Assembly (NCBI GenBank): GCA_029339195.1
Contig: JAPTJF010000284.1
Span: forward strand, 8,445-72,444
Direction of reading: 5' to 3'
DNA from: Micractinium sp. NFX-FRZ
Taxonomy: Eukaryota > Chlorophyta > Trebouxiophyceae > Chlorellales > Chlorellaceae
Length of the DNA stretch: 64,000 nt
Both the position numbers and the translations under genes were made by a program. This document shows, one piece after another, positions 258 to 57,931 of this stretch; position 1 is the first letter of the stretch; each line of letters begins with the position of its first letter. A model generated the notes under the pieces. The model was not told the DNA's origin. It was given only the letters and a program-made list of their open reading frames with translations, and ran no database searches.

Positions 258-3200
258 TCAAGCGTAGATGCCGCTGCGCAGCGCCACCGCCAGGCCCAGC
301 ACCAGCAGTATGGCGGCGCCGCCAATCAGCGCCAGCGCTGCCGGGTGCATGGGGCGCTGCCGCCACGCCTCGAGCTCTGCGGCGGTGGCGGGCAGGCGGA
401 CGGGGGGCGCCACGCCGGTGGCGGCCGCACCGCCCGCACCCTTCTCAAGCTGCAGCTCCAGGTGCTGCTTGAGGAGGCCCACATCTTCACCCGCCTCTTT
501 CACCCGCTCCTGCTCATCATACTCCGCAGTCTTCCGCCTCAGCCGCTCCTCCTCAGCCGCGGCAGCCGCCGCTGCGGCTGCGGCTGTGGCAGCGGCTGCA
601 GCGGCCGCGCTGCTGCCGCTGGCTGCCGCTGCCGTGGCGCCGGCCTTGGTAGGGCTGGCTGGTGCGGGTGCGGCGGGCGCGGCCGCTGCCTCGCCGTCTG
701 GCTGCGGCGCAGCTGCCGGCGGCTCCAGCAGTGCCAGCAGGGCAACGTTGCTGGCTGCAGTGGCCACCTGGCGTGGCGTCCAGCCGCCGGCGTGGGCGTA
801 CTGCCAGCACTCGGCCGCCGCCGTCAGCCCCACCGCCGCCACCAGCGCGGCGGCGGCGTCGGCCGACAGCGCCGGGCCCAGCGCTGCTGCCAGGTGGAGG
901 GGCGTCAAGCCGCGGCTGCCGCTGCCTGCCAGCTGCCAGCTGTGGCCCGCTGAGGTTGCCCAGTCAGCCAGCGCCGTCAGCAGCTCTGCGCTGCCAGAGG
1001 CAGCCGCCGTGCCCAGCAGCCCGGCTGGCAGCAGCGCATCCACGGCGGCCACTGCTGAGCTGGCATCCCCGCTGGCGGTGACAGCTGGCAGCAGGCGGCG
1101 CAGCAGCGCGGGCCAGCGGCAGCGCACGCACAGCGCACACAGCCAGGCGGCGGCCGCCGCCACGCGCTGCCGTGCGGCGGGCAGGTACCCCACATCCTCC
1201 GCCCCTGCCACCACCTCCCCCGGCTGTTGCTGCTGCTGCTCCAGGAAGGACAGCACGGTGTTGACGAGGCGCAGCACGCGCGTCGTGAAGCCGTGGAGCT
1301 GGCGCTGGTCAGCTGCAGCCGCGGCAGCCGCCGCCTGCAGCTGCAGCAACTCTGCCGCTTCCGCCTCCATGCCATCCGGGAGAACCAGCACTGGCGCGCC
1401 CTCTCCCAGCAGCGGGCCTGCAGCAGGGTACAAGGTTAGCAGTGGTGTTTAGAGCACGCAGACACAGCACGGGCACGTGCCCAGGTGGGAGGCCTGCCCT
1501 TCCCGCACAAGCAAGCACACATGCCCCAGGAAACAAGGCACCTGCCAGGCCGGGAGCAGCCGCATGCCGTGCCAATGCATTTGGGAGGAAGTACGACAGC
1601 AAGCAATGGGCGGCAGGCGAGGCCCAGGCAGGCGAGGCCCAACTTGCCAGGGCAAGCAAGCAGCCCAGGGCTCACCTGCCGCCGTCGCGAGCTCAAACTC
1701 ATAGAGGCCCCACTCGCGCCGCGCCGCCGGCACCCACACATCCACGCCGTGCTGCTGCTCCAGGAGCCGCCTCAGCCGCTCCTCCTCCTCCTGCTCCTCC
1801 TCCGCCCCATCATCATCAGCATCCGTCCCCACGTCTGATTCTGCCTCCCCATCTGACTGCGCCTCTCCGCTGCCGCCGCTGGCGGAAGCTTGTGCCTCCT
1901 CGCCGCCCTCTGCAAGGCCCTCAGCATCGCCCCCCTCCTCCTGCTCCTCCTCCTGCTCCTCCTCAGCCTGCGCTGGCCAGCTCTGCTCGCCAGGCATGTC
2001 TGGCGCGGCCTCTCCAGGGGGCAACACCGCGAGCGCCTTGTGCCGGCCGCCCGAGCGGCAGTGCAGCACGCGCGCACGGCCGCCACCCGACTCTCCCAGC
2101 AGCAGCTGCTGCCATTCGGGGCAGTGGAGCACAAAGCGGCCGCCTGCCGCCCCAACAGTTGTGGCCACAGGGCCCACGACCGCCAGCTTCAGCCGCTGCT
2201 GCTGCTCCTGGCTGCCGCTGCCGGCGCCGGGCCCGCCCATGGCAAGCGCACACACGACGCTGCCGGCGCTGGCAAGCTGCCTGTAGCTGCCGGCTGTGCC
2301 GCCGCCCTCTGCCGGCTGCTCCAGCGGCTGCAGCAGCAGGGCCGCGCTGGCCGTCTCCGCCTGCGCAACTACACGCAGCAGCGGCAGCGTGGGCGGCAGC
2401 CGCCACGCGCCCTGCTGCGCCGCCTGCACCGCCTGCCACGCGCGCAGCAGCTGGGCCAGCACGGCCGCCGAGCCGGCGGGGTGCTGCAGGGCTGCAGCCT
2501 CTGAGGAGCTCAGCAGCACGTCCAACGCGAGATGGGTGCACCCTGAGCGCACGGTCCCAATGATGATGGTCGGCGTGGAGGCCAGCGCGCTCTGCAGCTC
2601 ACGGCGCAGGTGCGGGGGCAGCTGGTCGGGCGCCAAGCCATACACCTGCAGCAAGGGGACGGGGCGGGCAGGCACGCGCGCAGGTTGTGGGGCAGCCGGG
2701 GCGTGCAATGGGGACACGAGGGCTGCAGAAACAGGTAGCCGGCATGCCCGTGGAATGGGAGCGCCCACCGGTATGGAGGCCGCACGCAGTGGCAGCGGCA
2801 GCTGCAGCAGCAGCTGCAGCATGGGGCCTCTCTCCGCACACACCTCGAGGGAGAAGCGGACCACAAGGGGCTGCCTCTCATGCAATCAACTAACACCTCC
2901 CAAGACAAAAGTTTGGAAAAACAGCAGGGCCCCAACCGCAGCACACACCTTGAGGGAGAAGCGGATCACCAGGGGCTCCCTCTCCAGAGAGCAGGGGTCG
3001 GCAGCCGCGGCAGCCACGGCCTGCGGCAGCGGCGCGCCCGCGCTCTGCAGCAGCGCCGCCGTCTCGTGCGCTGCCGGCCAGGACGACAGCGGCAGGCTGG
3101 CGGCGGGCAGGCTGGCGGGCGGCAGGTCAAACATGGCGTCGTCCAGAGGCTCCCGCTTGGCCTGCTGTGCATGCTGGGGCGCTGAGCGCGACGACAGCCC

Positions 3201-4084
3201 CAGCAGGCTGCGCTGCATCTGCTCCCCAGGAGAGCTCACAAAGCAGTCCAGGCTGGGCAGGTCGGCCAGGGAGACAGTCGTGAACTGCTGTGCCTCCTGC
3301 ACTCCCAGCCGGTTGGCTGCCAGCGCGGCGTCCACGGGGAGGCCAGCGGGCTCCGACAGGGAGGCCAGCGGCCCCATTTGGTGGGTGCTGCTGGCGGCGC
3401 TGGTGCGTGCCAGCAGGGCGGCCGCCAGGTCATCAGGCTCCATCACCTGCCACGTCAGCAGCGGGCGGCAGGAAGCCAGGTCAGCAGCAGGGGCAGAAGC
3501 CATGTGGGGAGGGCGCGAGGCAGCGGGGCAGACACGCAGCCCGGGGCTGTGCGCTGGCTCGCGGGCGGCAGGGCGTGCCCAGCAGTGCAGTGCATCACAA
3601 GCCATCAGGGAGCAAGGGATATGCCCATTCGCAGCGCGCATGTGCAAGGCTGCATGCAGGCTGGGCACTGCTGCGTCAGGCGGGCAGCACAGCGTGAGGT
3701 GCACAACATTTTAAGTCAGCCTCTAGATTGGGCAGGCAGGCAGGCAGGCAGGCAGGCGGGCAGGCAGGACAGGGGCAGCAGGGGCAGCAGGGGGTGCAGC
3801 GGGCATGTCAGCGGGCATGTCAGCGCTGAAAGGAGTGCATGCCGGCAGGGGGGCAGCCGGGGGGCCTTACCAGCAGCTGGTCGATCTCGTCTGGCGTGAG
3901 GGTGGGCAGGGTCTGCTGCTGCGCCTGCTGCGCCTGCTGCGGGAAGCTGGGGCCCAGCAGGCTCCCAAACGAGGCCAGGCCATGCGGCGGCCAGCCGTCC
4001 GCCGATGACGAGCCGCCGCCCGGCTGCGGTGACACGCTTCCCAGTGGTGCCAGAGTGGAGGGAGGGAAGTCCTGCTGCTGCTTG

Positions 4085-4117
<33 letters not shown>

Positions 4118-8136: not shown

Positions 8137-8672
8137 AGCAGGCCTGTGGGCGTGCCGCTACACACATGGCAGCTGCTGGCATGGCTGGGGTGCACACCGC
8201 TCCGCTGCCTTTTGCCGCTGCCACTCATTTTTCAGCCCTGTCGTGCCCGCGCCCTCACCCCCCACGCGAGAGCCCACCATCCTCTAGCAACTGTCATACT
8301 ACTTGTCCCCGCCCCCCCCGCAACACGCACCTGTTTTTCCATGCAAGGCCCCAAAGCACACACCCCTCACCTTGTCCCTCCCGTCTTTCATGCCCTTCTC
8401 TTCCCCCCTGTCTCCCCATCTTTACACCCTGCCCCACTCGTCTTTCCCACTCCCAAGTCACACGCTGTCTTCAGAAGAACCTTCCATCCCCTTGCTCACT
8501 CGCTGCGCCCTTATTTATCAGTCTCACCTTCTCTCTAACACATGCTGCCTGCCGAGGGCCCAGCCCGACCCGTGGCGGCTGCCACCTCGGTTCAGCTGCT
8601 TTCGAACAGACACCCGCTGTGCGCTGTCCCTGCCCGTCCCCCGCCGGTCAATTGCATCATCCTCCGCATCCT

Positions 8673-8791
8673 GAACACGAAAGCAGATCCACATGCTATC
8701 GACACGTCGGACCCAAGATTATAAGGATTGCATCTGTTACCGCCCCTCTTGAACACCAAAGCAGGTCCACATGCTATCGACACATCTGACC
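8673..8791. repeat. 41-bp direct repeat pair
   Basis: 8673-8713 and 8751-8791 match over 41 nt with a few substitutions (shared core CCACATGCTATCGACAC), offset 78 bp, in the gene-free interval. Confidence 0.85.
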
Positions 8792-9224: not shown

Positions 9225-10383
9225 TGGGTGGCTTCGGTTGACACGATGCATTCGTTGATTGGGTGGACAGCTGGGACGCTCACACACGAAAGCACCGCCA
9301 CATTCACATGTGCGGTACTGTGTATGGATCAGGAGGGAGGGCATCTAGGGGATGGGAGCCCACCTGCCTGGGGGCAGGGGACAGAGATGACTCAGCACAG
9401 AGCGGTGTGACCAGCAAGGGCGCGGCACTCATGATGTGGGGTGGATGCCAGCGCTGCAGGGTGGGCGGCCATGGGTACTGCGGGGGAGTGGGTGGGCGGG
9501 GCGGGCAGCGTGGCATGCATGCTGACCCCCGCCAGCAGCCTGCGCCCTGCATAGCGCCAGCGGCGGGGAGCACACACAACCTGCAGCTGCGAGCCGTGCC
9601 CCTTGAGAGGCTTGAGGAGGGTCGTTGGCTGCCTTGCTTTGGGATCTGCGGGTCTTACACGGGTGGTTCTCTGTCGGTTGAGCAAGGCAAGGTGAACAAG
9701 GTGAAAAAATTGCGCTACACAAACTGGTCCGATCATAGCCCAGGGGCGTGAACGAATGCACTACACAAATCACTGATGGGAGCATGATGGGCGGGGAATA
9801 AAAGGTTGGGGGTCGCAAGTCGCAAGTGTCACAGGGGGATGGTATTCATACGTAACAGAAACACAAGGGATGGGGAAGCAGCGCGAAGCTGCGGCAAAGG
9901 ATGGGGACAGACTTGACAGGATCGCTGGGGCAATTTCACGGGGCGGACATATCAATTTTCATGTTGCTGGCTGAGCAAGCATAACGTCGTTCGTTTGCAG
10001 TGTGTGTTCAGAGGTGCGCGGGGGCTGCGAGGGGTGGTTTGACGTCGCGCCAAGGCATGAGCCCCCGCAGCACGCGAAGCACGGTCAGGAAGCCCAAAAG
10101 GCACCTGTGCAACAGCTGCTGACCCAGGGGAGCCTGGCTAGCCTCTACATCTGCAGCAGCAGCGGTGGCGGCAACAGCAGCGCTGTGCTCAGCATTCTGA
10201 AGGGTTGAAAAGTGCAACCCCCTTGCCTCAAGTCTCCGCTCAGGCACAGGGTCGAAGCTTCTCCCTCCCACCAACCTCCCTTGCCAACAACTCACACTCT
10301 CCCCCGCAGCCTCGCCATGCCGTGGCGATGGAAGGCGGGGTGATCATGCTCCGCTGCGCCGGCCCATAACACCCTCGGCCGCC

Positions 10384-10520
10384 CGCCAAATACGAAGGCC
10401 CACAACCCACACCCACACCCCACGCACACCACGTCGCAAATACGCCAGACTTACTGAACACACGCCCACAAATATACCATACTCAGTGAACATTACGCCG
10501 CAAATACAACATACTTAGTC
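10384..10520. repeat. Degenerate AT-rich tandem repeat 3' of PFL
   Basis: Three to four diverged units containing CGC(A)AATA(C) and a TACT(C/T)AGT or TTACTGAAC core follow one another immediately downstream of the PFL stop codon (minus strand). This could be 3' UTR. Confidence 0.6.
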
Positions 10521-13500
10521 AATGCATGCAACCCGCACTCACCATGTCGTGGAAGGTGCGGGTGATGACGTCCAGCTGCTGCTCGCGCGTGAGGGAGGTG
10601 AAGTGCACGGCGTAGCCGCTCACACGGATGGTGAGGTTGGGGTAGGCCTCGGGGTGCTGCAGGGCAGGTGAGTGGGGTGGGGGGAGTAGGTCATTGGATT
10701 GGGCTGGGTTGGGCGGGTGGGTGGGCATGGAAAGCACGGCCCACAAATGGTGAGGTTGGGTGCCCACTTGTAGCCACCAACACCGCACCTTGTCCACTTG
10801 TAGCTACCCACACCGCAACCCATCCGCCTGTAGCTACCCACAGAGCCCCCCACCCACTTGTAGCCACCCACACAGCCCCCGCCCACACAGCACCCATCCC
10901 ACCCACCTCCATGGCATCCACCAGAGTGTCCCGGCTCAGCGTGTTGACGTTCAGGTGGTGCCCGCCCTTCTCAAAGTAGCCTGCACGGCGCACGCAAGTG
11001 TGTGGCATGGAGCGGTGTGAAGGCAGCAGCAGCAGCAGCACACATGTGCATGTGGAGGCAGCAGCAGCGGGGCAGGGAAGCACTCGCTCCATCCAGCAGT
11101 GCTGAGAGCTCCTGGCATGAGGGCCAGCACTGAGCAGTGCACGTGTTGTCATCCACCATTGGACGACACGACAGACACACACACAGTCACCCCCCTTTCG
11201 TTCACGCACACGCATGCACGCACCGTCCAGGATTGACACCAGGTTGTTTGCCTTGGCCGCCTCGCTCTTGCCCAGGGCCGCAGGCACCAGGCTGAAGCTG
11301 CAGGCACGAATAGTAGAAGGCCGGCAGGCGCAGAAGGGCAGAGGGCATCGGCGGGCTGCAGAGGCGGGCGCCACGTGGGGGTGTGCAGACCAGCATGCAG
11401 GAGCTTGCAGTGGGCACGGCATGCAGGGCGCTTGCTTGCCGAGGACCACTCAGGTCGGCACGCCGCCTGTTGGGGCTGCTGGGCCGTGCTGCGAGCAACA
11501 CCCCTTCCTCCGCAACACCTGAGTGCTGCGAGCACCACCCTTTTATTCTCCGCACCCACGTGGTGCCGCACTTGCCCCTGGCGGTTTCACAGCTGGCGGG
11601 TGCCAACCCACAAGGCTCGACGCAAATCATGGCTGCTGGCTGACTGACGCCATACACCAAATTGACAGCGATACATTGCAAGGGAACCTCTGTTGCACTC
11701 ACGTGTTGCTCACGCCGTCCATGGCATCATCGTAGCTGATGGCGGCCACGGAGTTGAGGGAGGCCAGGGCCCCGGAGGCATCACGGCCGTGCATGGGGTT
11801 GGCGCCTGCACACGCGGCACGACGAAACACAGCGTGCACAACATGGTTGCACTGCCAGCAAGCGCGGCTAGCTATTGGTGCACAAGGCAGGCAGCCACGT
11901 CAGCCCACCACGCCGCACCCGACGTGCCCTGTTGCCGCCCGCCCGCCCGCCCGCCCCGCACGCCTCGGGCGATCCTCACCTGGGGCAAAGGGCTCCCCGG
12001 CGCGGCGCCCGTCGGGCGTGTTGCCGGTGGCCTTGCCGTAGACGACGTTGGAGGTGATGGTGAGCACGCTGCAGGTTTGGTAGAGCATGGCAGCGGGGCG
12101 TGAGCACATGTGGGGGGAGGAGCTGCTTCCCACAACACCTCCCTTCTCTGTCCCACCCCACCCCAACCAAGCCCTGCAGCCCCCCCGAGCCATGCACCGC
12201 CCGCCCTGCCGCTGCCCCATCCAACGTGGCCCTCACCTCAGCGTGGGCACGGCGTCACGATATGTGTGCTGCTGCGCCAGCTTGTCGTGAAATGCCTTGA
12301 CCAGGCCGGCGGCAATGCTGTCCACCCGCTCGTCGTCGTTGCCGTAGCAGGGCCACACACCCTCGGTCCTGCAGGCAAGACGAGGCCAGGGGGCGTGCAG
12401 CGCGGGGGAGGAGCGTAGGGGGCAGGTCAGGCCATGCAGGCACACTGTTCTGGGTCCCTGCATCCCGCCTGCCTGCCCTGCGCTTCCATGATCCCTGCGC
12501 TGCTCTGTTCCGCACTCTGTCTCCTTTCCCCTGCCTCACTTGACGTCCGTGATTATGCCCCTCATCATCATACATGGGGAACACTCCCTTCTCTGTCCTC
12601 TCCGCCCAGCTGAGACCATGATTGGTCCACCCAACTCCCCTGAGGGTTCACCTGAAGTCCGTGATCATCCCCCTCTCGTCATAGAGGGGGAAGACCTTGC
12701 CGTACTGGATGGCGGACAGGGAGTCGGCCACCACGCTGCAGTACAGTGCGGTACAGCACGACTTTGGGTCAGTTCCAATCGCAGATCCAATGCGGGGCAG
12801 GGCGTGCCTGATGGCATGGCAGAGGGGGCGTCGGACAGCGGCAATGCCGTTCCGTGCCTGGTGGCCCAAACACGGCCCAGCAGCTGAACAGCAATCACTG
12901 GTCACAACAATCTTCACGCCGCACCCCCGCCCAAGCTCACCTCAGGCCGGCAATGCCGTAGGCCATCAGCCGGCGCACGTGGGTGTCGTGCAGCGCCATC
13001 TGCACCTTCTCGTAGTTGTACTTGTCGTGCCTGCATACAGAGAAAGGACAGGGGTAATGATCGGGTACAGAGAAAGGACGGGGTAACAGGGCACATCATC
13101 TTAAATTGTACCTGCGCTTGTTGGGTGTTTGCGTGCAAGAAAGCACAGGCTCAGGCTATAAGGGAATGGGAAGGGGAGTTGAGACCACACATGCGCGGCG
13201 CCCCAATCGGCATACATGTTGCTGCCTGCCGGTTTTGCTACTCAGCCGCTGGCCCTTTGGCTGGCAGCAGCACCAAGGGGCGCAGCAGCCCAGGCAGCTC
13301 CCTCCCGGCCCCACGCCTGCTGTCCCACGCCTGCCCATCCTGAAAACCGTACAAGCAAGCAACCAGCTCACATGCAGTGGATGACGTTCATGGTGGAGGA
13401 GTACAGCTCAGCCAGCCAGGTCATCGCGGTGTCCAGCCTGGCGGCCACGTCAGCGTACTGCAGGGAGCCGTCCTCGGCAAGCGCCGGCGCCGGCAGGGCC

Positions 13501-16500
13501 GGGCCCACCTGCAAAACAACAGAAAACAGGAAGCGCTGTTAGTAAGCTGCCACCACCTGTGCCGGCAGGACCGGTCCCACCTGCACTAGTGTAGAAGAAA
13601 AGAGGAAGAAATGGCGACCTGTCTTCCTCAGTGCAAGGGGCAAGGATTTGGCTTACTGTGTGGAAGGGAAGCAGGGGAGCACGCCAATAACCTGGCGCCC
13701 TGCCTGCCCTCAAACATGCAACACTTGTTAACAAATTGCGGCACACACCTGCTTGCCCGACACCTCGTCCTTGCCGCCGTTGAGCGAGTACAGCAGCAGC
13801 TTGGCCAGGTTGGCGCGCGCACCAAAGAACTGCGGAGAGTGGCCGCCGACAAGCAGGCAGTTGTGTCAGTCGCACAAAGTGAATGCATGCGAGAGCAGCA
13901 AGTAGAGAAGCAGCAGCAGCTGGGGTTGGTCGGGCGCACCGCACCGCAGCAGTGCGGCAGCAGATGCACTCAGGTGTGCTGGCACCGGTTGGAGGTCTCA
14001 AAAACAGAGAGCACCGACCTGCATGTCCTTGCCGAGCTTCATTGCGGACACGCAGCAGGCGATGGCGTAGTCGGACCCAAACCGGCTGTTCATCATCGCG
14101 TCGTTCTCGTACTGGATGGAGGAGGTGTCCAGGGAGACGCGCGCGCAGTACCTTTTGCAAGCCAAGTGTTGGGGGCAGGAGGGGCAGGCAGGGTGCAAGG
14201 GCAGGGAGTGACAGAGGGGCGGATAGCAGGGTGGGCAAAGGGCTGCTGGTTCTCCAACAGCAACAGCAGCTGCAGAGCGTGCCGTGCTTGCTGGATGCCA
14301 GCGGTGCGTCCAGTGAAGGAGCATTCGGTTGGTGCAAGCAGCCACTCGTTGCTTGCTTGCAGTGCTCGGGCAGGGACCTGACAACCGATACGCAGATGCA
14401 TGTGCATGTGCATTTGGTGAAGAAACAAAGCAAGATGCATTTGATGAAGAAAGAAAGCAAGATGCATTTGCCACAGAAACAAAGCACATAGAAAGAAGGC
14501 ATTGCTCACTGCTTGAAGCTCTCGGGCAGGGAGGGGTGCCACAGGATGGTGATGTTGGGCTCGGGTGCGGGGCCCAGGTTGTAGAGGGTGTTCAGGATGC
14601 GGTACGACGTCTTGGTGACCTGCGGTACAGAGTGCCAGGTGGCAGGGTGGCAGGGTAGCAGGTGTGTGAAGCAAGATCAGATTGCAGAGGGTGTTGAGCA
14701 GGCGGTTACAGATGTCTTGGTGACTGGCCAGACGCTTTCACACCCCAGCTTCCCGGTGCCTGGGAAGCTGAAGCAGACAGCTGGCACTCCTCCGCCTGCC
14801 TAAGCACCCTCCTCTTCCACCCGCCGTGCCACCAATCCAGCCCCGCCCCACTCCATCCCTGCCCTCATGCCCGTCCAGCTTGCAACCAGGCAGTGCCTCT
14901 CACACTGTACTTCTCCTGCTGTGGGGCCACCCCCCGGCCTCATGCCCACCCAGCAAGCAAGCAACCCAAGCCGTGCCTCTCACCATGTGGCTGCCCTGCT
15001 GGTCGGCGCCCCCCAGCACTGCGGTTACCCAGGTGGGGTCCCCGGCAAACAGGTTGTCGTACTCGGGGGTGCGCAGCTGGCGCACGATGCGCAGCTTCAT
15101 CACAAACTGCGGCGGGGGGGCAAACAGGACTTGCTTTGAGCAGGGGGACGGGTTGCTGTGGCACGGGGGTGCGCAGCTGGCGCACGATGCGCAGCTTCAT
15201 CACAAACTGCGGCGGAGGGGGCAAACAAAGCACGTTGAAACAAGATATCAGCAGGAGGGCAGGCGGTCGCACTTGAGGGTGCGCAGCTTCGTCACTAGCT
15301 GCAGCAGCGCGAGCAAGACATACTGAGCATAGCAGGAAGGAGAGGAGCAGCCAGCCAACTGTGCAGCGGCAGGCAGGCAAGCAGGCAAGCAACAATCCAG
15401 TCCAGCTGGCGGCCAGCCAGCCAGCTGCACATGATCGGCCCCACCTGGTCAATGATCTCCTGAGCTCCGGCCTCATCCAGCCGACCCTCCGCCAGGTCCT
15501 TCTCCAAATAGCTGCACGGGAGCACAGCAGGCACAGCAGGCAGGGCAGGCACAACGGGCATGTCGGACAGGGGCGCCAGTAGGGCACACAGCATGCGCAT
15601 CAGGCGGGCCGACGCATCGAGTCTCAGCCCAGCCCCTCAGCTTGTCTAAGCCTATGCCCCTGGTGAGAGGCACCAGGCAGGCAGGCACGCGAGGCCGGGC
15701 ATTGCAACCGGCGGACAAGCAAAGCAACTTGAAAGCACTGCAAGCGCACCTGTCCAGGAAGGCGTCCACCCGCCCCAGGCTCATGGCGGCGCCATCCTGC
15801 TCCTTCACCGCAGCCAAATAAGCATAGTATACCCACTGCACCGCCTCGCACGCGCTGGCGGCGGGGCGGGAGATGTCATCGCCATAGGCGGCGCCCAGCT
15901 CCTGCGCAGGGGGAGGCACAGGCAGGGAGGGAGGGGGCGCGCAGGCGCAGAGCAGAAGGCTTCAGCACAGACGGCAGCGCACCTTGGGCTTTGGAAGCAC
16001 TTGATCCACGCACGGCCCAATTAATGACCCAACTAATGACAAAATTATAATGACACAATTAATGACAGAACTGATGACCCAACTCAGCCTCAGTGGGTGT
16101 GGCTCTCGCCTTGAGCTGCACGGCGGCAGCTGCCCCCGGGCCTGGCCGCACCTCCCTCCTCACCCCAGCCAAGCACAGAGCAACACGCTGCAGAACTAAC
16201 TAAACTCGATTGATTGACCGACACGGCAGCATCACGCACCTTGAGCTGCTGCCGCGCCCCGAACCGGTCGGTTCACCTCCTCCCTCACACCCCAGCTAAG
16301 TGCAGCCCAGCACATCAGGTGCAGCACTGCTTGAACCGACGCACCTTGAGCTGCTGCAGCGCCCGGATCTGGTCGTTCACCTCCTCCCTCAGCCTGATCT
16401 TCTCCTCGGTCATGGGGGCACCGCACAGCCCGGGGGAGGAGAGGTCGGCCAGCTGCGGGCGGGCAGGGGGAGGAAAGTGGGAAAAGGTGAGGGATGGAGG

Positions 16501-19179
16501 GCAGGCGAGGGCAGGTGGGGCATGGGAGGCGGGGAGGGAGGTGGGGGCAGGTGAGGCAGGTGGGGGCGGGTCAGGGATGGAGGGCGAGGCAAGGGGAGCG
16601 GAGGCAGGGGAGGTGGGTGTGCCGGTCATCGCAGACGAGCGGCGTGCTGCGGTCACTGGGTGCTCACCCTTTCAGCTGGCTGCCCGCCATGGCTAGCTTA
16701 CACTGACCGCACCCGCCCAATGGAAGCCACTCGATGACGCCGCTGCGCCATGCATTTAACCTTCTTCCCTTCCTCCCCTTCTTCCCCTTCTTCCCCCTCA
16801 CCTTTGCCTCGATCAGCGCATCCACGCCGTACAGCGCCACGCGGCGGTAGTCTCCGATGATGCGCCCCCGCCCGTAGCCGTCGGGCAGACCCGTGAGGAT
16901 ATGGTTGGAGCGGGCGGCGCGCATGGCGGGGGTGTAGGCATCAAACACGCCTGGAGGTGGAAGGGGGGGGAGGGGAGGGAGGGCACACGGAGGCATGATG
17001 AGAGGGGAAGGGGGATGGTGAGGGTGGCAGAGGGGGAAGGCACCGGCCAGGCAGCGGGGCAGCCGGGAGGCGGTTGGGCAGCGGGCAGACAGCATTTTCA
17101 AAGACGGAGCGGGGCAGTGCATTCTACCTCCCCCCTTGCCCATCATGGCTTGCTTGTCTGTTCCGCAAACGTTGGTGTACCATGCAAACATTGGTGTACC
17201 ACACGATCACACAACATGCTTGGAGGAGGCTCCCGGCCCCCCCACACCCTCCCCGCCCTCTCTCCCTCTCCCTCCCTTCCCTTTGTTCGCTCACCCTGGT
17301 TGTGCGTCTTGCGCACGTTGGTGTACATGAACTCCACCTCTGGTGCCAGCTCCCGGCCATAGGCCTTGAGCGCGTTCTTCACCACCCCCACGCCGCCCTG
17401 GGGCTTGATGGCACGCTTCAGGGGCTCGTCAGTCTGTGGGAGCAGGGGCAGTGAAGGGGTGAGAAGGGGTGCAGGTTGCCTTTCCAAGGGAGCCGGGTGG
17501 CTTGATGGCTTGCCCCGGGGGTTGAACAGTCTGTGGGTGGGAAGAAAGGGGGGGCAAGGGCAGTGAGGTGCTGCACACTCCAGCTGGAGGGGCCCGCGGA
17601 GGATCAGGAGCATTGGGAGACGGCGGAGGATCAGGAGCATTGGCAGACCCTGGCCGAAGCACCCTAGGACGCACCCACTCCCGCACACGAATCTCTGCCC
17701 ACCCACCCATTCACCCACTCTCCACGCCCTCCAACAACCACAACCAAGGTCTCCCCCGAAGGTCAGGGGTCAGTCATTCAGGCCACCTGCAGCCCCTGGA
17801 TGACCTGGCTGAAGTAGCCCCCCCTACACCCTGCCCCAAACGCCCAGGGTCAAGTCTTGTGACAACCCTACACCAATCGTCACACACCTGCAGCCCCTTG
17901 ATGATTTCCAGCCCCCGGTCATGTAGCCCCCCTACACCCGTCCTTGACACCCAGGATCAATTCTTGTGGCCCCCGTAGTGCCCATTCACCTGCAGGCCCT
18001 TGATGATCTCCAGCCCCTGGTCGATGTAGCCCGGGGGGGAGGTGAAGGCGGTGATGGTGGAAGGGACAGAGGGGTCCACTCCCATGATGCCACGCCGCCG
18101 CTCCTCCTCCTTCAGCGCCTGCAAGGGAGGGCAGTGGGGGCGGGGAATGAGGGGCCACAACTGGGTCAGTGTGCGTGCCAGCCAACCGTTTGCCAGCACT
18201 TTGGGGGGTGCCACACTAACAGAGCGCTGAAGAGGTGCGTTTTGGGGGGTGCACCCCCCAGAGTGCGGGTGAGGTGCGGGGGCAGTGGATCTGTGGCAAG
18301 CAGCAAGCAGCGCGGAGTGGGCAGACGGCGGGGCGATGCCATGCCGGCGAGCACGGAGGGAGGGCAACCAGTGTGCACATAGGCAGGGGCCACGCGAGCC
18401 AGGCAAGCTCTCTAGGGTGTGGGCCGAGGGGACGCATCCCTTCTTGGCCTGCAGGGGGCGTCCCACTGCCCGTGCACCCCTTGCGCTGGTGGACAGCACA
18501 GCTGGAAACAAGACTGCAGGTTGATTCCCGGCTGCGCACCTCGATCTGCGCCCACAGCATCTGGGAGCGCTGGGTGGGCCCCGCCAGGAAGGAGGCATCT
18601 CCGTCATAGCGAGTGATGTTGGCCTGGATGTGTGCATCCACGTTGATGCCAGCAACGGGGGCAGCAGGCTTCTGGATTGCCCGGGCGGCGGCCGGGGCGG
18701 CGGCGGGCGCGGGCGGCGCGTCCACCGCGGCGGCGTGCGTCCTGCGGGAAGGGGTGACGGCGGTTTGTGGGGAGGTGGGGCGGGGAGGGGACGTGTTTGC
18801 GGGCTGTGAGCTGGCAGGAGAGGAGCGGTCCGGTTGGGGGTTCAGGGACGGAGCTGGCAGTGCAGTTCAGGACTCTGGACAGGCCCGGCACCCTCCAGGG
18901 GGTGTCGGTCTGGCCTGAGGCTGGCTGTGGTATCCCGCCCGACAAGGGCAAGTGTTTTACGTGATGGGCAGAAGCGGTCCATGAGCGGGCGCACCTGACA
19001 GACGGCGTGGACTCGTGCTTCTCCGCGGCTGAGACGGTGAGGGTGCGCTGGGGGGTGCGGCGCAGGCTGGCACGGCCCGCGAGCAGCTGCGACGGGCGCT
19101 GGACTCGGCGGCCCGCCAGGGGGCCTGCCGCAGGCGGCAGGCCCTTGCACTGTGTTGCGGCGGCAGCGGCGCAATGCAT
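10519..19179 (-). CDS. PFL1: Pyruvate formate-lyase (formate C-acetyltransferase)
   Basis: PFL converts pyruvate and CoA to acetyl-CoA and formate under anoxia. There are 21 exons: 19179-18995, 18741-18540, 18118-17990, 17433-17295, 16950-16802, 16452-16345, 15901-15750, 15511-15445, 15106-14984, 14619-14510, 14151-14019, 13829-13749, 13508-13372, 13030-12941, 12735-12652, 12368-12237, 12068-11980, 11805-11703, 11297-11224, 10980-10907, 10656-10519; all phases close to 832 aa. The N-terminal 60-80 residues are Ala/Arg/Ser-rich, as for an organelle transit peptide. The family block [13 protein letters not shown] is present. The catalytic pair is C487-C488 (YAIACCVS) and the glycyl-radical residue is G801 (IRVSGYAV). 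The end is slightly uncertain because a perfect GTGAGT donor follows the codons for TFHDM, 26 nt before the stop. The activase gene is head-to-head. Confidence 0.96.
10767..10880. repeat. Minisatellite in PFL intron 20
   Basis: Four diverged units of about 29-31 bp containing CTTGTAGC(C/T)ACCCACAC, in the intron before the last exon. Confidence 0.8.
12540..12590. repeat. Intronic copy of PFL exon 15 donor edge
   Basis: Diverged copy of 12652-12702 (GTCCGTGAT core, GGGG(A/G)A near its end), offset 112 bp, inside intron 15. Confidence 0.75.
13561..13585. repeat. Intronic copy of PFL exon 13 acceptor edge
   Basis: About 25 nt (CCGGCAGG-CCGG-CCCACCTGCA) match 13489-13513, which spans the real acceptor of exon 13; offset 72 bp, in intron 12. 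Confidence 0.7.
14408..14490. repeat. 27-bp tandem repeat in PFL intron 10
   Basis: Three units built on GATGCATTTG ... GAAACAAAGCA, AT-richer than the surroundings. Confidence 0.85.
14683..14730. repeat. Intronic copy of PFL exon 10 acceptor edge
   Basis: Diverged copy of 14580-14627 (AGAGGGTGTT and GTCTTGGTGAC cores), offset 103 bp, in intron 9. Confidence 0.8.
15164..15305. repeat. Two intronic copies of PFL exon 9 acceptor edge
   Basis: 15164-15231 is a near-identical copy of 15064-15131, offset 100 bp, and contains the acceptor plus the first 14 codons of exon 9 ([14 protein letters not shown]). A third, weaker copy is at 15270-15305. Both lie in intron 8. Confidence 0.92.
16107..16293. 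repeat. Two intronic copies of PFL exon 6 donor edge
   Basis: 16236-16293 resembles 16341-16398 (offset 105 bp) and 16107-16165 is a more decayed third copy (a further 130 bp away). Both sit in intron 6 and retain the AAG/GTGC donor environment or its remnant. Confidence 0.85.
17784..17986. repeat. Two tandem copies of PFL exon 3 donor edge
   Basis: Units start at 17784 and 17885 and match the real exon 3 end starting at 17987 (period 101-102 bp). The two intronic units also share their intron-derived halves, for example the GTAGCCCCCC tract and CCCAGG.TCAA.TCTTGTG. Confidence 0.9.
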
Positions 19180-19494
19180 GGCGCGTGCGCTTGCGTCCGG
19201 ACTGCTTCTGAGGCGTAGACGGCCTGTTTGTAGTCAAGCACTTGACCACTTGGTTGCCCTTCTTGATCCCTTGATCTGCGGCAGAATGTGTTGTGGGGCG
19301 GTCTGGAAGGGTAGGGTGTGAATTAACAAGGAGTGGCGACGTGTTATACCAGCCGCCGTGGGATTCGGCTTGATTTTCACGCTTACAAACGACAGCGGGC
19401 CTCCGGCATATGCCCCATTTCCGGTCCACCAGCGCCCTCCACACCTCCCGGCAGCATTACACTACATTATTAATAGCTCCTGAACCTTTTGAGC
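19180..19494. promoter_or_regulatory. Shared divergent promoter of PFL and PFL activase
   Basis: 315 bp separate the two start codons on opposite strands. An AT-rich patch (ATTATTAATAG, about 19465-19476) lies just upstream of the activase start. No GTAC motif is present, so direct control by an SBP factor is not supported by this interval. Confidence 0.6.
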
Positions 19495-21988: not shown

Positions 21989-22120
21989 GGGCAACCCCTT
22001 GTTGAGATCATCAGTGAATTTGATTAATATTGATTGCTTTTCTCCCTAGCTCGCTCCCACCCAAACAGCAGGCGATGCCATTTATGCCTGTGATTGTTGT
22101 TAAGGAGCTGCTAGGAGCTC

Positions 22121-22125
22121 TGTAA
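22121..22125 (+). terminator. TGTAA poly(A) signal of PFL activase
   Basis: Green-algal poly(A) motif 133 nt downstream of the stop codon and before the next gene's start. Confidence 0.6.
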
Positions 22126-25973: not shown

Positions 25974-26006
<33 letters not shown>

Positions 26007-50627: not shown

Positions 50628-53358
50628 TCACACCTGGATGTCGTCCTCATTCCACTCCTCGGCAGCGGTGGGGTTGTTGTAAAACATGGTGGGGAATTGG
50701 GTGGCCCGCCCCTCCTCGGGCTGCACGTGCTGCCAGCTGTCGTTGCTCTCGCTGCGGGGGCAGAGCAGGGCGGGAGGGGCAGGGAGGGAGGGTGGGGTAG
50801 AGAAGTGAGCACGCGCTGGATGCTGGACCAGTGGCAGGCAGGCAGGCAGGGGCAGGCAGCGCAGCACGCACAGCAGCATTTGCAGCAAGGAGCTGACTGT
50901 AGCTGGCACAGCGCTGCTCCACCCTCTCCTCCAGCTTTCCCATCCCCAGCATCTCCACCCCAGAAGGCTCTGCTGTCCCGGCTCACCCCCAGTCCAGCTC
51001 AGGCTGCTGGTACCGCTCCTCAGCCCAGCTTTGCACGCTTGGCTGGCCCGCCGCCCCGGCTGCTGCCGTCGCTGCCGGCTTGCCGCCCCTCATCGGCAGC
51101 TCCGCAGACCTCCGCTGCTGCTTGGCGTCGGGCTGCAGGCGGGCGGGCTGCGCCGAGTGCACCCCCATGTGCTGCGGGCGGTTGGGGTGCTGCTGCGGCC
51201 GCTGGTTCTCGCTGCCCGCCTGCTGGGGTGGGCCAGGGAGCAGGGGGCAGGAGGCAGAGGCGGCAGGTGTGAGGAACCAAGGGGTTGTGTTACCTTGCAG
51301 CAGCAGGGTGCCAGGATGGGCCCCTGCCCTGCACTGCCTCTCGCATCTCCTTCCCGCTCATCATGCCCCCCCAATCCAAACAAGTGTGGGGATTGACAAG
51401 CCCAACATTCCCACCCACTGCCTCTTGCGGTACGCTTGCTTGCGCACACTGCCCAACCTACCAACCAACCACTGTGTCAGCCCCCCATCACACCGCCTGC
51501 CCACCGCCCCTCGCGTGGTGAGTACTCGACACTCACCGCCACAGTCTCGTCGTACGCCCGCTTGCGCACCGCCGACGGCATCTTCAGCGGCAACTGCGCG
51601 TGTGCGCCGCCCCCCGCTGCCGCCGGCAGCTCCCGCCCGTTTTTTGGCACCGCCGCTGCTGCCGCTGCCGCGCTGGGGATGGGATCGGCGGCGTCTGCGT
51701 GGGAGATGAGCTCGTAATCGTCGTACGAGCGCTCCCCTGCCACAGGGGCGGGCGGGTTGGCTGCCAGGGGCCCCAGATCCGCCACCACAGGCAGCAGCGC
51801 AGGCTCTCCACCCTCACCCTGCCAAGGAGCACGCCAGATGGGGGGAGGGAAGAAGAGGGGAAAGGCGGGAGGGAGGCAGCAGTGAGGCAGGGAGGCTGGG
51901 GAACCAGGCAGGCAGGGCAGGAGCAGGGCGGGCGGGCGGCATGTGCGCAGGGGCTTTATGTTTGCTTGCAAACAATGCTGGCCGGGGCCCTCCCCACGTG
52001 CAGCCACGCAGCGGTGTGCAAGGCAGAAACGCACGCCACCACAGGCATCCCACCCAGCCGCCCCTCAAGGCCCTGCCGCCCCAATGCACCTGCTCCGAGG
52101 GCGGGTCCCAGACGTGCAGCATGCGCCGCCACTTCTTCACCTGCCCCTCAAAAGCGCGCTTGCTGCAGATCTGCGGGGTGTGAGGGCAGGGCGGGTGTGG
52201 CAAGTGTGGGGACAGGGCGGGCAGGGCAGGGAGCATGAGGGCAGGTGGGCAAGCAAACGCACGTTTGCTGGAGATCTGCGCGGCAGGAGGCGTGAGTGGG
52301 CCACGACAGGTCTGGTAAGTGTGGAGCTTGCGTGGCATGGCAGGGCAGGTGGGGGGTGGAGCAGGTCTGGTCAGTGTGGGGGCTGGGTGGGCAGGCAGGA
52401 GGCAGGGGGGTAGGGCAGGGCCGGGTGTAGTGGGGCAGGGTGGGGCAGGGTGGGTAGGCGGTGTGCAAGGAAGACAGGTAGGCAAGCAAGCGGCGCAAAG
52501 GGTGCGGTGCATTTTGGTAAAAGCAGGCCGACATGACTGGCATGATTGGTAAATAGCGAGGAGCGTGCTCTGCTCACGGAGAGCCAGGCAGCCCACTCAA
52601 GGGCACACAGGCCTCGATGCCTGGTCTGACCTGGTGCGTTGCATTTGGCTTTCTACCCTTGCGACGGACACGCCATGTCAGCAGAAACGTGTAGCTATTC
52701 AAAGAATCAAACCAAATGAATGACACATCCCAACAGCCACTGTGCCAGCTTGCAACTGTGCGCACCTGGTACACATCGGGAGTGATGGGGTCATTCTTGC
52801 GGTTGCGCCGGTCCCTGCAGCCAGGATACAAGGCGGCAGTTGGGGGTTGGGGGTGCTGTTGAGGGCATGGCTGGCGCCCGCAAGCTGCAACCCTGCAACC
52901 CCACAGGCAGACCCGTTGTGGCCTTTTGAAAGGTGCATAGGCGCATGCGCGAGTATAGGCACATGCGCAAGCAGGCAGGGAGCAATGCGAACTTGGTTTC
53001 TGTAATACGCACCGCGGCACCGCCGTCCGGTAGCGCTGGTAGCCCAGCGTGTTTTTGCCCAGGTCAATCTGCTTCTGCCGCTGCGCCAGGCGGTGGGCGT
53101 CGCCCTCACGTTGCGCCGCCTCAGGCCGCTGCGCGCCGCTGGCTGCGGGGCGGGGGGCAGCGGCAAGCATGAGGCGGGCAGCGGCAGGTACCGTCGCAAG
53201 CTGCGGCGGCAGCTGGGCAGGCGCCGCCAGCCGGTTGAGGCCACAGCGCCGGCGGCGCTGCGGGCCGGCTCGCATTTCTGTTCAACAGCATCCGTTTGCC
53301 ACTCACGTGCAGCGTCCTCCACCATGAAGTCCTCGCTGAAGTCCCTGCCCCCAGCCAT
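50628..53358 (-). CDS. SLBP: Histone mRNA stem-loop-binding protein
   Basis: SLBP binds the 3' hairpin of replication-dependent histone mRNAs and drives their processing and translation. Seven exons: 53358-53307, 53142-53013, 52814-52766, 52170-52090, 51818-51537, 51222-50987, 50751-50628; phases close to 317 aa. The RNA-binding domain spans exons 2-4: RQKQIDLGKNTLGYQRY, PITPDVYQ, and KRAFEGQVKKWRRMLHVWDPPSEQ. This keeps the family's KNTxGYxxY, the TP kinase site and the WRRxLHxWDPP core. The region after the domain is low complexity and ends in an acidic EEWNEDDIQV. The start MAGGRDFSEDFMVEDA is acidic and compact. The exon 6 acceptor is a CAGCAG tandem, so a one-codon alternative is possible. 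Confidence 0.94.
52258..52286. repeat. Intronic copy of SLBP exon 4 acceptor edge
   Basis: Matches 52153-52181 (TTGCTG-AGATCTGCG), offset 105 bp, in intron 3; the acceptor CAG is mutated. Confidence 0.75.
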
Positions 53359-54064: not shown

Positions 54065-57000
54065 CTATGCGTGCGGCAACAGCGCCAGCAGCGGCAGCGC
54101 ACGCAGCGCTCGAGCCACCGGGTGCTCAGCCGGCAGCGCAGCCGCAAGAAACATGCAGGGCGCCAGGACGGCGGGGCGCCGCACCCAGCCGGGCAGCTGA
54201 AGCCCGCCGCCGCCGCCGCTGCCGCCCTCTTCCGACGCCGCGCTCCCGCTGCTGCGGCCCGCGCCGCTGCCGCCGCCCTTGTTCTGCCGCCGCCACTTGC
54301 CCAGCTCCGCTATCCGCCGCTCCGTTTCCGTCTGCCTCCGCTGCAGGCTGTCGGTGAGCACATGCACATATTTGAGCAGCAGCCGCTTCTCCTGCCCCGC
54401 GGGGCTGCTGCTGGAGGCTACCAGCGCGTCCTCGCCGCCGCCGCCAGCAGACGGCAGCGTGCGGAACAGCAGCTGCTCGCACAGCCTGCGTGGGGTGCCA
54501 GCCGGGCAGGTGGGTGGGGTGGGGGTGAGCTTAATGGCACACTTAGAAGCTGAACACGAAGCTTCTTCTAAAAGGGCCTGTGAGCTGCTGGGCGATTCCA
54601 ACTTGCAGGTGTGGCAGCAAGTGGGCACGGCAGTCGAATGGAAGACGTGGGTGCATGCTGCAGCTAGAGTATCCACCTCAACAAGAGGCAGGTGCACCTT
54701 GGGTGCGCAGCCTAACCAGCCCACGGCCACCGCTCATGCTCTCCTGCCTCCCTCGACATGGCACCTGCTGTATCCCCCACACTGCCCAGCTACGCGCTCA
54801 AATACATTGATTCAAACACCGGCCGATGCCGAAGCTTGGGATCATAAACCAGCATCCCCGCCCCACTCACCGCAGCACAAAGCCGTCCCCCAGCTGCGCA
54901 TGCTGCGCCAGCTCCACCAGCTGCTCCCAGCTCAGGCAGCCGGGCCGCGCCTCAAACAGAGCCACCAGCTTCTGAAACACATAGTCGTCTGCCGTGTTGG
55001 CACCCTCTGTCCAGCAGCTGCCAGGCAGAGGAGGGAGCAGGGGAAGAAGTGGTCGGGGCAAGGGCAAGGGTGGGTGGAAAGGCAGGGTTCCAGGTTGCAG
55101 CAGAGGCACCAGGGAGCGCAGGCATGGTGCAGGTGCGGGAGCAGGGGGCACAGATGGGTGGCGCTCTGCACGACCTGCCCAAAGCCCCACAAGGGTGGGC
55201 ACACATCAGAGGCAGCAGGCAGCGGGCCGCACCTGGGGCAGCGCCGCAGCAGCTCCACCTGCTTTTACCTCCCCGGTCCAGTCCCCACCCTCCCTATGAT
55301 GAGTCAGCACCCCAGGCAGCAGGCAGCACCCGAGGCGGCTCCGCCGCAGCCCCGCCTACTTGACCAACCTCCCTGCTCCAGACCCCCATCCACCCTGCGC
55401 TATGGCATGGCAGCATCCGAGGCGACGGGCCGCACCTGAGGCAGCGCCGCAGCAGCTCCACCTGCTGCACCCGGTCAGAGTCCTCCAGCAGGAGGGAGCC
55501 GTAGATGGCGGCCGCCCGGTCGCGGTAGCCCGCCTGGAAGAGGCCCTGGGCAAAGAGCTGGAGGGCAATCCTGCGGGGAGGGGGGTGTGGCAGTGATGCC
55601 AGTTGTCACTAGTGTTTGGTGGTTCGTGCATTTGGTGGTCTGCCTGGGAGAGGCCCTGGGCAAAGAGCTGGAGGGCAATCCTGCAATCGAGCAGTGCAGG
55701 CATGGAGCCCAAGCTACTGGTGTTGCCTGCTTCCGAACTTCCAGTTAGCACATTGGCTGCCTCTCCCCCTGCCTGCTGGCTGCCTGTCCGCCACCCTTGC
55801 CCTCATGCTCAGGCACCAACCAAGCAGGCTGCATTGCAGCTGCCCCCCACCTGTCAAACGCATTGCTGTTGTGGGACTGCACGTACTGAATCGTCTCGTC
55901 CGAAAGCCCCTGCAGCAGGCGGGCGGGTGGAGAGTAAGTGCGCTGCATTTGATTGCGCAGCCATGTATCCTACACATGCAATGCTCTGCCCTTGCCCCAT
56001 GCCTGCAAGCCCCGCTGCTGCCCCTGCTCCTTACCCGTGGCCCCTGCCTGCCATGTTCCCCGGGTATAGCAAGCCTGCGCGTGCTTCCTCCACAGGCTTC
56101 CTCCTCAGCCTACCTCCTAACGCTGCCTCCTCACCGCCACTCCCGCCCACAGCCCTCCCACCTGCACATGGCTCTTTGTGTCGGCCACAAGCTCCACCGC
56201 ACGCCGCAGGTAGCGGACGGGGTCGGGCACGCCGGCGCCGCTGCACACCCGCTGGATGCACGCCTGCGGGGAGCGGGGGGGAGTGGCAGGAGCTTCCCAA
56301 AGTAGGATGCAAGCACGCACGCCTGCATGGGCGCAGCACTGCCTGGCAACTCAGCAACCCTAGCCGTTGCCAAACTCAAACAGCTGCTTCTCAGCACAGG
56401 GCCGTCCACAATCTCTTCACGCAGGCTGGCGGGGGGTGCCGGCTGCCGACCCGGTGCGCCGTGCATGCCAAGCGGCTGCAATTCCGCCCGGCTCGCCACC
56501 GTCATCCGCCATGGGGCAGCTGGTCCAGATGCTAAGTAAGCCCTCAGCCCGCCCAGGCCTCCTGCCCAGCCTCCCCCCCCAAAGGTGACTGACTGCTGCC
56601 CCCACCTTTGCCACGCTCTCCCGGTACTCCATGGCACGAGCACGGATGACGTAGACGGGAGTGAGGGACCTGCGGGTGGGAGCAGAGGGAGAGCAGGCCG
56701 GATGTGATGCGGGGGAGATGGAGCGGCTCGAGCGGTATGGAGGCATGCACTGGGCACGGCGGGGCGATGCAGGCTGGGCAGATGGGGTCTGCTGCCGCGC
56801 CACCCCGATTGGTCTGGCCCCGGTGGGTGCTGGCTGTGCAGAGCTGCCTGGGCAGAGCTGGCTGTCAGCCAGAATTCAAACGTTTCAAACGGAGCCAAGT
56901 CTGTTTGGCCGCCCGGCTCACTTGTTGAGGAGCGGCTGGCGGGTGAGGGGGTCAGTGGTGCTGTGCTCCAGGTGGGCCTGGATGGCGGCACGCTCATACA

Positions 57001-57931
57001 CCTGCGGCAGTCGGGGGCAAGTGGGTGAACTGATATGAATCGGCACACGCATACACATGCCGCAGGCGTGGGTTGAGTGGGTGGATGTTGTCATATTGCA
57101 TTTGGTTGACATCCGGCAGGGGCGAGTGGGTGAAGGGAAGGGATAGCATAGTTGTTGAACGGCAACATTGAAAGGCAGGCAGCGCTGAAGGGCAGCCAGG
57201 CAGGTGCATGGGCCTGCACAATGCTGGCCACCGCCGCCGCTGTGGCCAGTGCGCCAGCTGAGCAGTCTGCCCTGCACCTCCTCACGCCCAGCTGCATGCG
57301 CCCGCCTGCCCGCCCAGCCGGGCCCTGCCCCGCCCCTCCGGCGGCCGCGCTCACATGGCCCGCCCAGCTGGCGCCAACTCACATGGCCCGCTGTGGTGAG
57401 CACCGGGTCAATGAATGGTGCCAGGGTGAGGGGGCACACCTGCAGGCAACGGGCGCAAGGGCGGCAACGGTTGGCAGCATCCGTGGGCGAGTGTCTTTGT
57501 GTCCTGCCTGACGGTGCCAGCAGTAACGCACGCACAGGGGCACACACACACACACATGCAGCAGTGGATGTCAAGGGCTCCATCACCCAGGCTGGCCCAA
57601 CTCCCACTGGCGCCGGCGCCTGCACCCACTGAACAGCCTGCTCACCAGCTCAGGCGGGGTGTCAGAGATGCAGCTTCTCCTCCAACCCATGCCTGGCCTC
57701 GCTCCCGGGACCACTTGCCAGCCCAGCCCACTAGACACTCTGTGGCCTGCTCACCAGCTCAGGCGGTGCGTCAAAGATGTAGCTTTCCTCCAGCTCTGCC
57801 GCCGCTTTGAGGCCGCTCATGCCTGGGCTCAACCCAGGGGCCGGGCTCTTGCCGGGGCCGGGGCTGTGCGCTGCTGTGTGCTGCTGTCCCCTGGGCGGGG
57901 TCCCACGAGGCGACGGGGATGCCATGGTCAT
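54065..57931 (-). CDS. U-box protein, putative E3 ubiquitin ligase
   Basis: Nine exons: 57931-57755, 57439-57383, 57001-56922, 56669-56606, 56263-56162, 55909-55851, 55570-55436, 55017-54871, 54485-54065; phases close to 413 aa. The U-box (residues about 60-105) is VCPLTLAPFIDPVLTTAGHVYERAAIQAHLEH...DPLTRQPL, with the family's P-x-T, DPV, G-x-x-YER and DPxTRxPL landmarks. It lacks RING zinc ligands, as U-boxes do. A proline/serine-rich leader precedes it. After it come helical segments (YLRRAVELVADTK, RDRAAAIYGSLLLEDSDR, DDYVFQKLVALFEARP). A coiled-coil-like stretch (SLQRRQTETERRIAELGKW) follows, then a hydrophobic C-terminus that might anchor in membrane. Three of its introns carry exon-edge copies. 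ATG 57931 is taken; 57925 is two codons further in. Confidence 0.88.
55228..55358. repeat. Two intronic copies of U-box exon 7 donor edge
   Basis: 55228-55264 is close to 55431-55467 (GCACCTG-GGCAGCGCCGCAG), offset 203 bp, and a weaker copy at 55326-55358 lies midway (97 and 106 bp steps), giving three tandem units. In intron 7. Confidence 0.88.
55640..55687. repeat. Intronic copy of U-box exon 7 acceptor edge
   Basis: Nearly identical to 55530-55577 (GAGGCCCTGGGCAAAGAGCT), offset 110 bp, in intron 6. Exon 7 thus has copies of both its edges in its two flanking introns. Confidence 0.93.
57637..57712. repeat. Intronic copy of U-box exon 1 donor edge
   Basis: Matches 57746-57821 (CCTGCTCACCAGCTCAGGCG then diverging), offset 109 bp, with an intact GTGAGC donor, in intron 1. 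Confidence 0.9.

Follow-up and report, generated by a model that had tools for sequence, protein, structure and literature searches.

Introners are responsible for rapid intron change and have added introns to the genomes of diverse eukaryotes. The creation of introns by tandem duplication is likewise an established process. In the Rogers model, with ATP2A1 as an example (Hellsten et al.; PMC4974935), tandem duplication of an AGGT-containing exon segment yields a new intron whose length equals that of the duplicated unit. The 3' side of an intron was duplicated together with the 5' side of the downstream exon in the potato RdRp gene (Ma, Lan and Niu, 2016; PMC4974935), novel introns of Drosophila are described as arising by sliding or tandem duplication (PMC2891723), and small tandem duplications in animals and plants are attributed to the fill-in of staggered breaks (PMC8355091, PMC5730883). 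Among the surveyed titles and abstract openings of the literature on intron duplication and gain, none reported genome-wide duplications absorbed into existing introns. Here, we describe copies of exon edges inside the adjoining introns of Micractinium sp. NFX-FRZ, observed in a stretch of 64,000 nt of contig JAPTJF010000284.1 (hereafter, the window) and in ten further contigs. In the examined 264 kb, about one intron in ten carries such a copy of a neighboring exon's edge, in some stage of decay. Each copy, or echo, is apparently the fossil of a tandem duplication of about 100 bases that lengthened an existing intron while leaving the protein unaltered.

The window has a G+C content of 65.7% and belongs to a 66.07-Mb assembly of 838 contigs; with 200 kb from the ten other contigs it makes up the 264-kb sample. 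Genes were modeled ab initio by our own hidden-Markov gene finder, trained on the same data, which produced 475 introns (median length 235 nt) and well-defined splice profiles (donor AG/GTGNG, acceptor TGCAG/, the slash marking the junction). The models were checked against the protein of a relative for one gene, the pyruvate formate-lyase gene PFL1, and four of the five other window proteins submitted have Pfam domains above the cut-off. The list of 465 introns used below predates the merging of 24 internal mini-exons (30 nt or shorter) into introns, which preceded the final uniform-placement test; the merged list contains 441 introns (882 junctions). Tallies take pairs scoring at least 18, with most low-complexity pairs left out, and an 18-bp array at 38741-38813 is counted as intronic.

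A scan of the window against itself, taking all ungapped matches at offsets of 40-400 with no low-complexity filter, gave 55 matches scoring at least 18, compared with one at 361 random distant offsets; at a score of at least 16, the numbers were 86 and, at an equal number of distant offsets, 3. Of 465 introns, 52 contain a copy, scoring at least 18, of their own junction query, which comprised up to 60 nt of exon and the splice site. When each query was instead run against as many as five introns of other junctions, there was no match at 15 or above; an earlier note on this DNA had proposed such a control. Direct copies occur at 57 of the 882 junctions and inverted copies scoring at least 18 at none of them, and inverted templated insertion is rejected on this ground. 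Likewise, none of 279 exons has its edge copied into the intron on its far side, as against 18 and 18 copies on the same side, in line with the view of the earlier note that the copies always lie in the adjoining intron. Between offsets of 85 and 145 there are 48-52 junction clusters, a few of which match the exon only. Junction copies at these offsets were found in 19 of 112 introns inside the window and in 28 of 329 outside it (48 of 441 under slightly different clustering), so that the window is approximately twice as rich in them as the remaining sample (Fisher p 0.02).

Most of the individual echoes listed in the earlier note proved to be real: 21 of its 22 entries, matched by offset and order as they came without coordinates, were recovered. 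The recovered offsets are 105, 112, 72, 103, 100, 105, 102, 143, 120, 119, 131, 119, 103, 103, 222, 88, 105, 97/106 (also 203), 110, and 109, and the 18-bp array; an offset of 82 and a second copy at +130 were not recovered at a score of at least 18. Our own gene models give 25 junction matches in the window, and four weaker ones lie beyond the entries of the note, at offsets 80 (14966), 210 (15260), 104 (37116), and 55 (57041). The nine genes counted there correspond to eight of our models; nine is a reasonable count, because the model at 19495-26548 looks like two genes.

Echo-bearing introns are longer than the others, with medians of 336 nt (n = 46) and 233 nt (n = 395), respectively. By number of units, the median is 232 nt for none (n = 388, CI 222-244), 330 nt for one (n = 34, 297-352), 403 nt for two (n = 17, 349-436), and 397 nt for three (n = 2). 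The first unit comes with a gain of 98 nt (CI 63-124), i.e., the first duplication event is accompanied by extra intron length approximately equal to its own offset. In three multi-copy introns (17434 in the window, R008 1115, and R006 13745), the intron part lies inside the copied unit of 93-104 bp, and the alignments that include it span 138 bp at 84% identity, 133 bp at 85%, and 139 bp at 80%. At 16 sites where the intron part is scarcely visible, weak similarity persists on the intron side (p 0.002 and 0.009, with nonindependent control pairs), and there is no such residue past the exon breakpoint of the same sites (p 0.65). The length of the visible copy does not rise with the offset (Spearman -0.08, n = 40) and therefore counts against a copy joined to independent filler. 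The hypothesis of a copy plus unrelated filler is weakened by this relation, by the gain of a whole unit, and by the residual intron-side similarity. In the intron at 647-1747 of L012, an array of units of about 107 bp, several of them identical and with a run of N inside, ends at the real acceptor; here a junction duplication has expanded into multiple units.

The offsets of junction copies peak at 90-130 nt, and a smaller group at approximately 180-220 nt resembles second units. Of 75 matches scoring at least 18, several of which may belong to one site, 51 have offsets of 80-139 and 32 of 90-109. The excess near 100 bp, whose absence would have spoken against the claim of the earlier note, is thus present. 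Junction and intronic pairs differ sharply in this respect: there are 1 and 20 of them, respectively, below 60 nt, and 48 and 9 at 85-145 nt (Fisher p 9e-11, or 2e-8 if two short rows touching a donor are moved). Compared with the simulated expectation, short junction pairs are scarce (1 of 21, p 0.008). The simplest reading of a peak just above 60-85 nt is that a close decoy splice site is used and purged while the size spectrum of duplications falls; the alternative is a mutational step near 105 nt.

The echoes look neutral. Mismatches between exon and echo at 60 sites amount to 0.10, 0.10, and 0.15 at codon positions 1-3, and 19 of 21 indels in echoes are not multiples of three. The copied splice dinucleotides are retained in 28 of 33 donors (GT or GC) and in 17 of 27 acceptors (AG), i.e., they are lost about as often as other bases, or more often. 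Even codon positions, frame-breaking indels, and lost AGs speak against a coding or splicing function. All 17 wholly exonic duplications, on the other hand, are multiples of three, and hence selection does act within the same catalog.

We tentatively favor, with a probability of roughly 0.47, the reading that the echoes are remnants of small tandem duplications that happened to contain a junction and were absorbed into existing introns, with no targeting of junctions. A unit of about 85-145 bp (mode about 105) including the splice junction would be duplicated, probably when staggered breaks are filled in and their ends joined, and would add about one unit to the pre-existing intron. If splicing keeps using the outermost, original site, the protein would be unaltered and the inner copy neutral. 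Selection would fix the real exon edge and its splice signal, whereas the intron half would be free to drift and to fade faster, and even once that half is lost to view the pair would still be recognizable by its exon edge and splice signal. Exon-internal duplications would survive only as multiples of three. Because intron-internal ones would fade quickly, the rate at which junction pairs arise would be overestimated. At spacings below about 60-85 nt such pairs would be few, probably since a near decoy splice site is used and harmful, and such a filter combined with a falling size spectrum would place the peak just above the limit.

Placement tests bear directly on this reading. At offsets of 85-145, uniform placement predicts 27.0 junction, 12.4 intron-only, and 8.9 exon-only pairs; the numbers seen are 48, 8, and 4. 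A part of the junction excess is a matter of visibility, because the exon half stays recognizable longer: 39 of 52 junction pairs have no intron-only score of 18 and are therefore visible through the exon half. In simulations with substitutions and indels, some of them on real intron sequences, equal fading yields approximately 0.7-1.7 junction pairs per intronic pair. Let J denote junction pairs, II intronic pairs, and Ji those junction pairs that are also visible by intron similarity alone. The observed ratios are 5.2 for J/II and 4.0 for J/Ji, and the uniform model with faster intron fading gives 2.7 and 3.1, respectively, at a factor of 2, 3.9 and 4.9 at a factor of 3, and 5.6 and 8.5 at a factor of 5. 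An age-fair count, based on intron-to-intron similarity only, comprises 13 junction and 10 intronic pairs, while the uniform prediction is 0.7-1.1 to 1, so that no bias is seen (p 0.14-0.68).

Several observations weigh against undirected duplication. The uniform model does not reproduce the data when exon and intron bases fade alike (J/II 1.4, J/Ji 1.8); the fading factor of 2.5-5 was fitted, and no single value serves both ratios, as 2.5 suits one and nearly 5 the other. Only two of the nine intronic rows near 100 nt were judged to be independent duplications of about 100 bp once minisatellites and secondary copies were dropped, and with only these two kept, J/II exceeds anything simulated. 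These exclusions, made post hoc, bring the age-fair count to 11 introns against 2, which would amount to a bias (p 0.001-0.02). Intergenic pairs are fewer than uniform placement predicts, 0 against 9.5 at offsets of 85-145 and 2 of 116 over all offsets, though 18% of the sample is intergenic. The lengths of the exon part (median 36, 90th percentile 58) fit a simulated copy of 40-80 nt (34 and 58) and misfit a simulated full unit (56 and 92), and intron parts of 10 nt or less occur at 57% of 46 sites, compared with 21-30% in simulations. In several close pairs the similarity stops abruptly at the splice signal, e.g., 55571 (43 bp, 98%) and R012 1856 (52 bp, 96%); such edges and the exon-part lengths would also favor a copy plus unrelated filler. 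Finally, the shortage of short junction pairs weakens to 3 of 21 (p 0.15) when the two donor-touching rows are moved, and some of the short-offset rows belong to one array.

Many of these same observations are what a junction-directed process would produce, i.e., one linked to repair or transcription that copies about 35-60 nt of exon edge with the splice signal some 105 nt into the intron. High identity is confined to the last or first 30-40 exon nt and the splice signal, falling from 0.77 to 0.49 past donor position +5, and the ratio of 48 junction to 9 intronic pairs at 85-145 nt has p 7e-5 against the 0.59 expected at equal rates. The sharp-edged close pairs, the exon-part lengths, the age-fair count after exclusions, and the paucity of intergenic pairs point the same way. 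Yet the age-fair count without exclusions lies near uniform placement, one-echo introns are longer by a whole unit of about 98 nt rather than by about 50, copy length is independent of offset, and the intron part is included in several units. We therefore consider such a process possible, in view of the sharp profile at the splice signal, the close truncated pairs, and the intergenic shortage, but less likely than undirected duplication. It is to a similar degree possible that a junction-directed process with a step of about 105 nt, leaving traces in approximately one-tenth of introns, has been a main route of intron growth in this lineage. Of the steady, unit-constrained enlargement from the junction outward that the earlier note had envisaged, the junction-spanning direct copies, the longer introns, and the spacing of about 100-110 nt thus stand, and its directed character is retained as a possibility. 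A further reading, in which the exon repeatedly converts its echo once the tandem duplication has occurred and so keeps the exon half and splice signal young while the intron half ages, is less probable still. It would explain exon halves of 98-100% identity beside an unrecognizable intron half (55571, 15107) as well as the excess in J/Ji (4.0 as against 1.6-1.9), and it fits the even codon-position pattern. However, no conversion tract was polarized, conversion would have to be sporadic given that exon and echo differ by 0.10-0.15 per site on average, and it should keep intronic pairs alive too.

The remaining explanations are considerably weaker. Were the inner copies functional alternative or decoy splice sites under selection, which we regard as improbable, the retention of GT or GC in 28 of 33 copied donors would be natural, but a per-site identity of 0.89 alone predicts about 26 of 33, and the loss of AG in 10 of 27 acceptors, the frame-breaking indels, and the nearly even codon positions are at odds with it. 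Introner-like mobile elements, with long target-site duplications that would supply the spacer between the copies, are very improbable. The first 87 nt of one echo-bearing intron (L020 3772-3989) do match 26 other places, and 16 of these matches start no more than 1 nt from the donor; nevertheless, this segment and the second of three introns whose matches were followed look like simple repeats, and in the third there is a dispersed element in truncated form. The least credible explanation is that the introns themselves were born by tandem duplication of AGGT-containing exon segments. A fast turnover of intron positions (7 of 13 comparable PFL1 introns are shared with its paralog PFL2) would accord with it. 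However, none of the 441 introns has donor and acceptor neighborhoods homologous in register (offset equal to intron length) at a score of 10 or more, while shuffled introns give 1.3, and the offsets are near 105 nt in introns of approximately 230-340 nt. Newborn introns are rejected on this ground, the test bearing on births whose traces have not fully decayed, and the distinction drawn in the earlier note between the echoes and AGGT-type intron gain is upheld. A minisatellite or slippage model fits many intronic pairs of 20-60 nt and the 18-bp array at 38741, but not the echoes of about 105 nt.

PFL1 (10148-19179, minus strand) served as the reference gene. Its product matches E. coli PFL (1h16, E 9e-267), and the nearest named proteins, among the best 120 of 8,000 scored, are from Micractinium and Chlorella. 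The corrected model, from which three mini-exons coincident with echoes and a predicted 3-nt last exon were removed, has 20 introns, six of them with echoes. Its product is 91% identical to the 823-residue protein of a relative, with one 3-residue gap near the N-terminus. That protein is probably transcript-derived, because it is encoded on a 4,347-nt contig. In this one gene compared, the relative's protein has no extra residues at the positions of the echoes, which are thus probably spliced out of PFL1. The three echoes that the gene finder had called mini-exons lie at 13557-13580, 15186-15206, and 16240-16248; the second of these is missing from both the E. coli PFL and the relative's protein.

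The paralog PFL2 at L040 (C119:42000-48500) is 69% identical to PFL1 over 597 residues. Of 13 PFL1 introns that allow comparison, seven have a counterpart in the same position of PFL2 and, to judge from these two sequences, intron positions turn over fast between the paralogs. Five echo-bearing introns of PFL1 can be compared: 15107 and 13509 are at shared positions, and the remaining three do not coincide exactly. No duplication scoring at least 18 was found in PFL2, the introns of the two genes themselves not having been aligned.

Within PFL1, echoes of the donor edge are situated at 12536-12675 (offset 112, intron 12369-12651), 16234-16375 (offset 105, intron 15902-16344, with the mini-exon artifact mentioned above), and 17885-18022 (offset 102). 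The last has a third copy deeper in the intron, and its 138-bp gapped alignment (84%) includes the intron part. Echoes of the acceptor edge are found at 13477-13585 (offset 72), spanning a false mini-exon in a stretch longer than in E. coli PFL, at 14575-14706 (offset 103, intron 14620-14983; weak, score 18.0), and at 15064-15220 (offset 100). The latter is the closest pair of the window, with 63 aligned bp identical apart from one indel, and has a weaker third copy at 15260-15288 (offset 210). All of these are on the minus strand.

The plus strand carries four acceptor-edge echoes, at 21657-21846 (offset 143, intron 21519-21823), 23188-23350 (offset 120, intron 23042-23321), 24877-25034 (offset 119, intron 24717-25013), and 25280-25444 (offset 131, intron 25142-25425). 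The other sites are again on the minus strand. Donor-edge echoes are located at 2817-2984 (offset 105; edge 2922-2984, echo 2817-2879, intron 2802-2948), 28718-28853 (offset 103, intron 28482-28823), 39965-40092 (offset 88, intron 39739-40077), and, in a U-box gene, 57636-57785 (offset 109, intron 57440-57754). Two further donors have more than one copy: 36882-37164 shows an offset of 222, about two units, with a weak copy at 104 (intron 36688-37107), and 55217-55471 shows offsets of 106 and 203, i.e., two units (intron 55018-55435). Acceptor-edge echoes occur at 30908-31072 in an ABC transporter gene (offset 103, intron 30945-31279), at 52149-52290 (offset 105, intron 52171-52765; weak), and at 55524-55684 (offset 110, intron 55571-55850), where the copy of 43 bp at 98% begins at GCAG. 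A weak echo at 28282-28423 (offset 119) copies exon sequence near a donor, the junction itself being excluded. The 18-bp tandem array at 38741-38813, a short-period exception, starts at the donor of intron 38600-38812.

Some other features of the sample deserve mention. PFL1 and a radical-SAM-domain gene on the plus strand, starting at 19495, are arranged head to head approximately 315 bp apart (19180-19494), which suggests a shared promoter region. The radical-SAM domain is one that we take to be expected of pyruvate formate-lyase activase. The model of the latter gene (19495-26548) joins this domain to a SpoIIIAA-like ATPase domain and probably represents two genes. A tandem duplication at 8669-8791 (offset 78) is predicted to be intergenic and is one of the two intergenic pairs among the 116 scoring at least 18. 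The L020 segment (3903-3989) is 73-85% identical to its 26 other genomic matches, and reads as a repeat of the GTGCTG type; 16 of these matches start within 1 nt of the donor. The dispersed element at L012:3280-3378 lies in a 1.2-kb intron; 18 of its 22 matches elsewhere stop no more than 3 nt from a common 3' point, while their 5' starts vary, so that it looks like the tail of a truncated retroelement.

If the proposed origin of the echoes is correct, a compact genome keeps graded fossils, from near-identical to barely visible, of duplications of about 100 bp that feed the edges of its introns. Each event would then be a natural test of splice choice between two near-identical sites in the same exon context and at a known distance, of which the spliceosome must choose the outer one. 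Should the scarcity below 60-85 nt hold, it would define the minimum tolerated spacing of duplicate splice sites. For annotators the PFL1 mini-exons are a warning, as echoes were mistaken for exons there and public annotations of such genomes may contain comparable errors.

The echoes resemble introners in the rapid change of introns, but no shared mobile family was seen in the three introns followed. Fill-in duplications at breaks are, like the echoes, head-to-tail copies of short units, although the insertions of PMC8355091 are short (<100 bp) and most echo units are at or above 100 bp. Duplicated segments with splice sites reshape gene structure in Drosophila as they do here; exon duplication there makes introns at new positions, whereas the echoes represent the growth of old ones. 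The Rogers model and ATP2A1 share with the echoes a short direct tandem duplication, copied splice sites, and an unchanged protein, yet they create a new intron, while the echoes enlarge an old one and lack the donor-acceptor signature (0 of 441). The potato RdRp unit straddles an acceptor junction, as acceptor-edge echoes do. In that gene the duplicate became an additional intron through the use of a cryptic donor; in Micractinium, each duplicate appears to have merged with its intron into a single longer one, and this at dozens of sites that include donors as well as acceptors.

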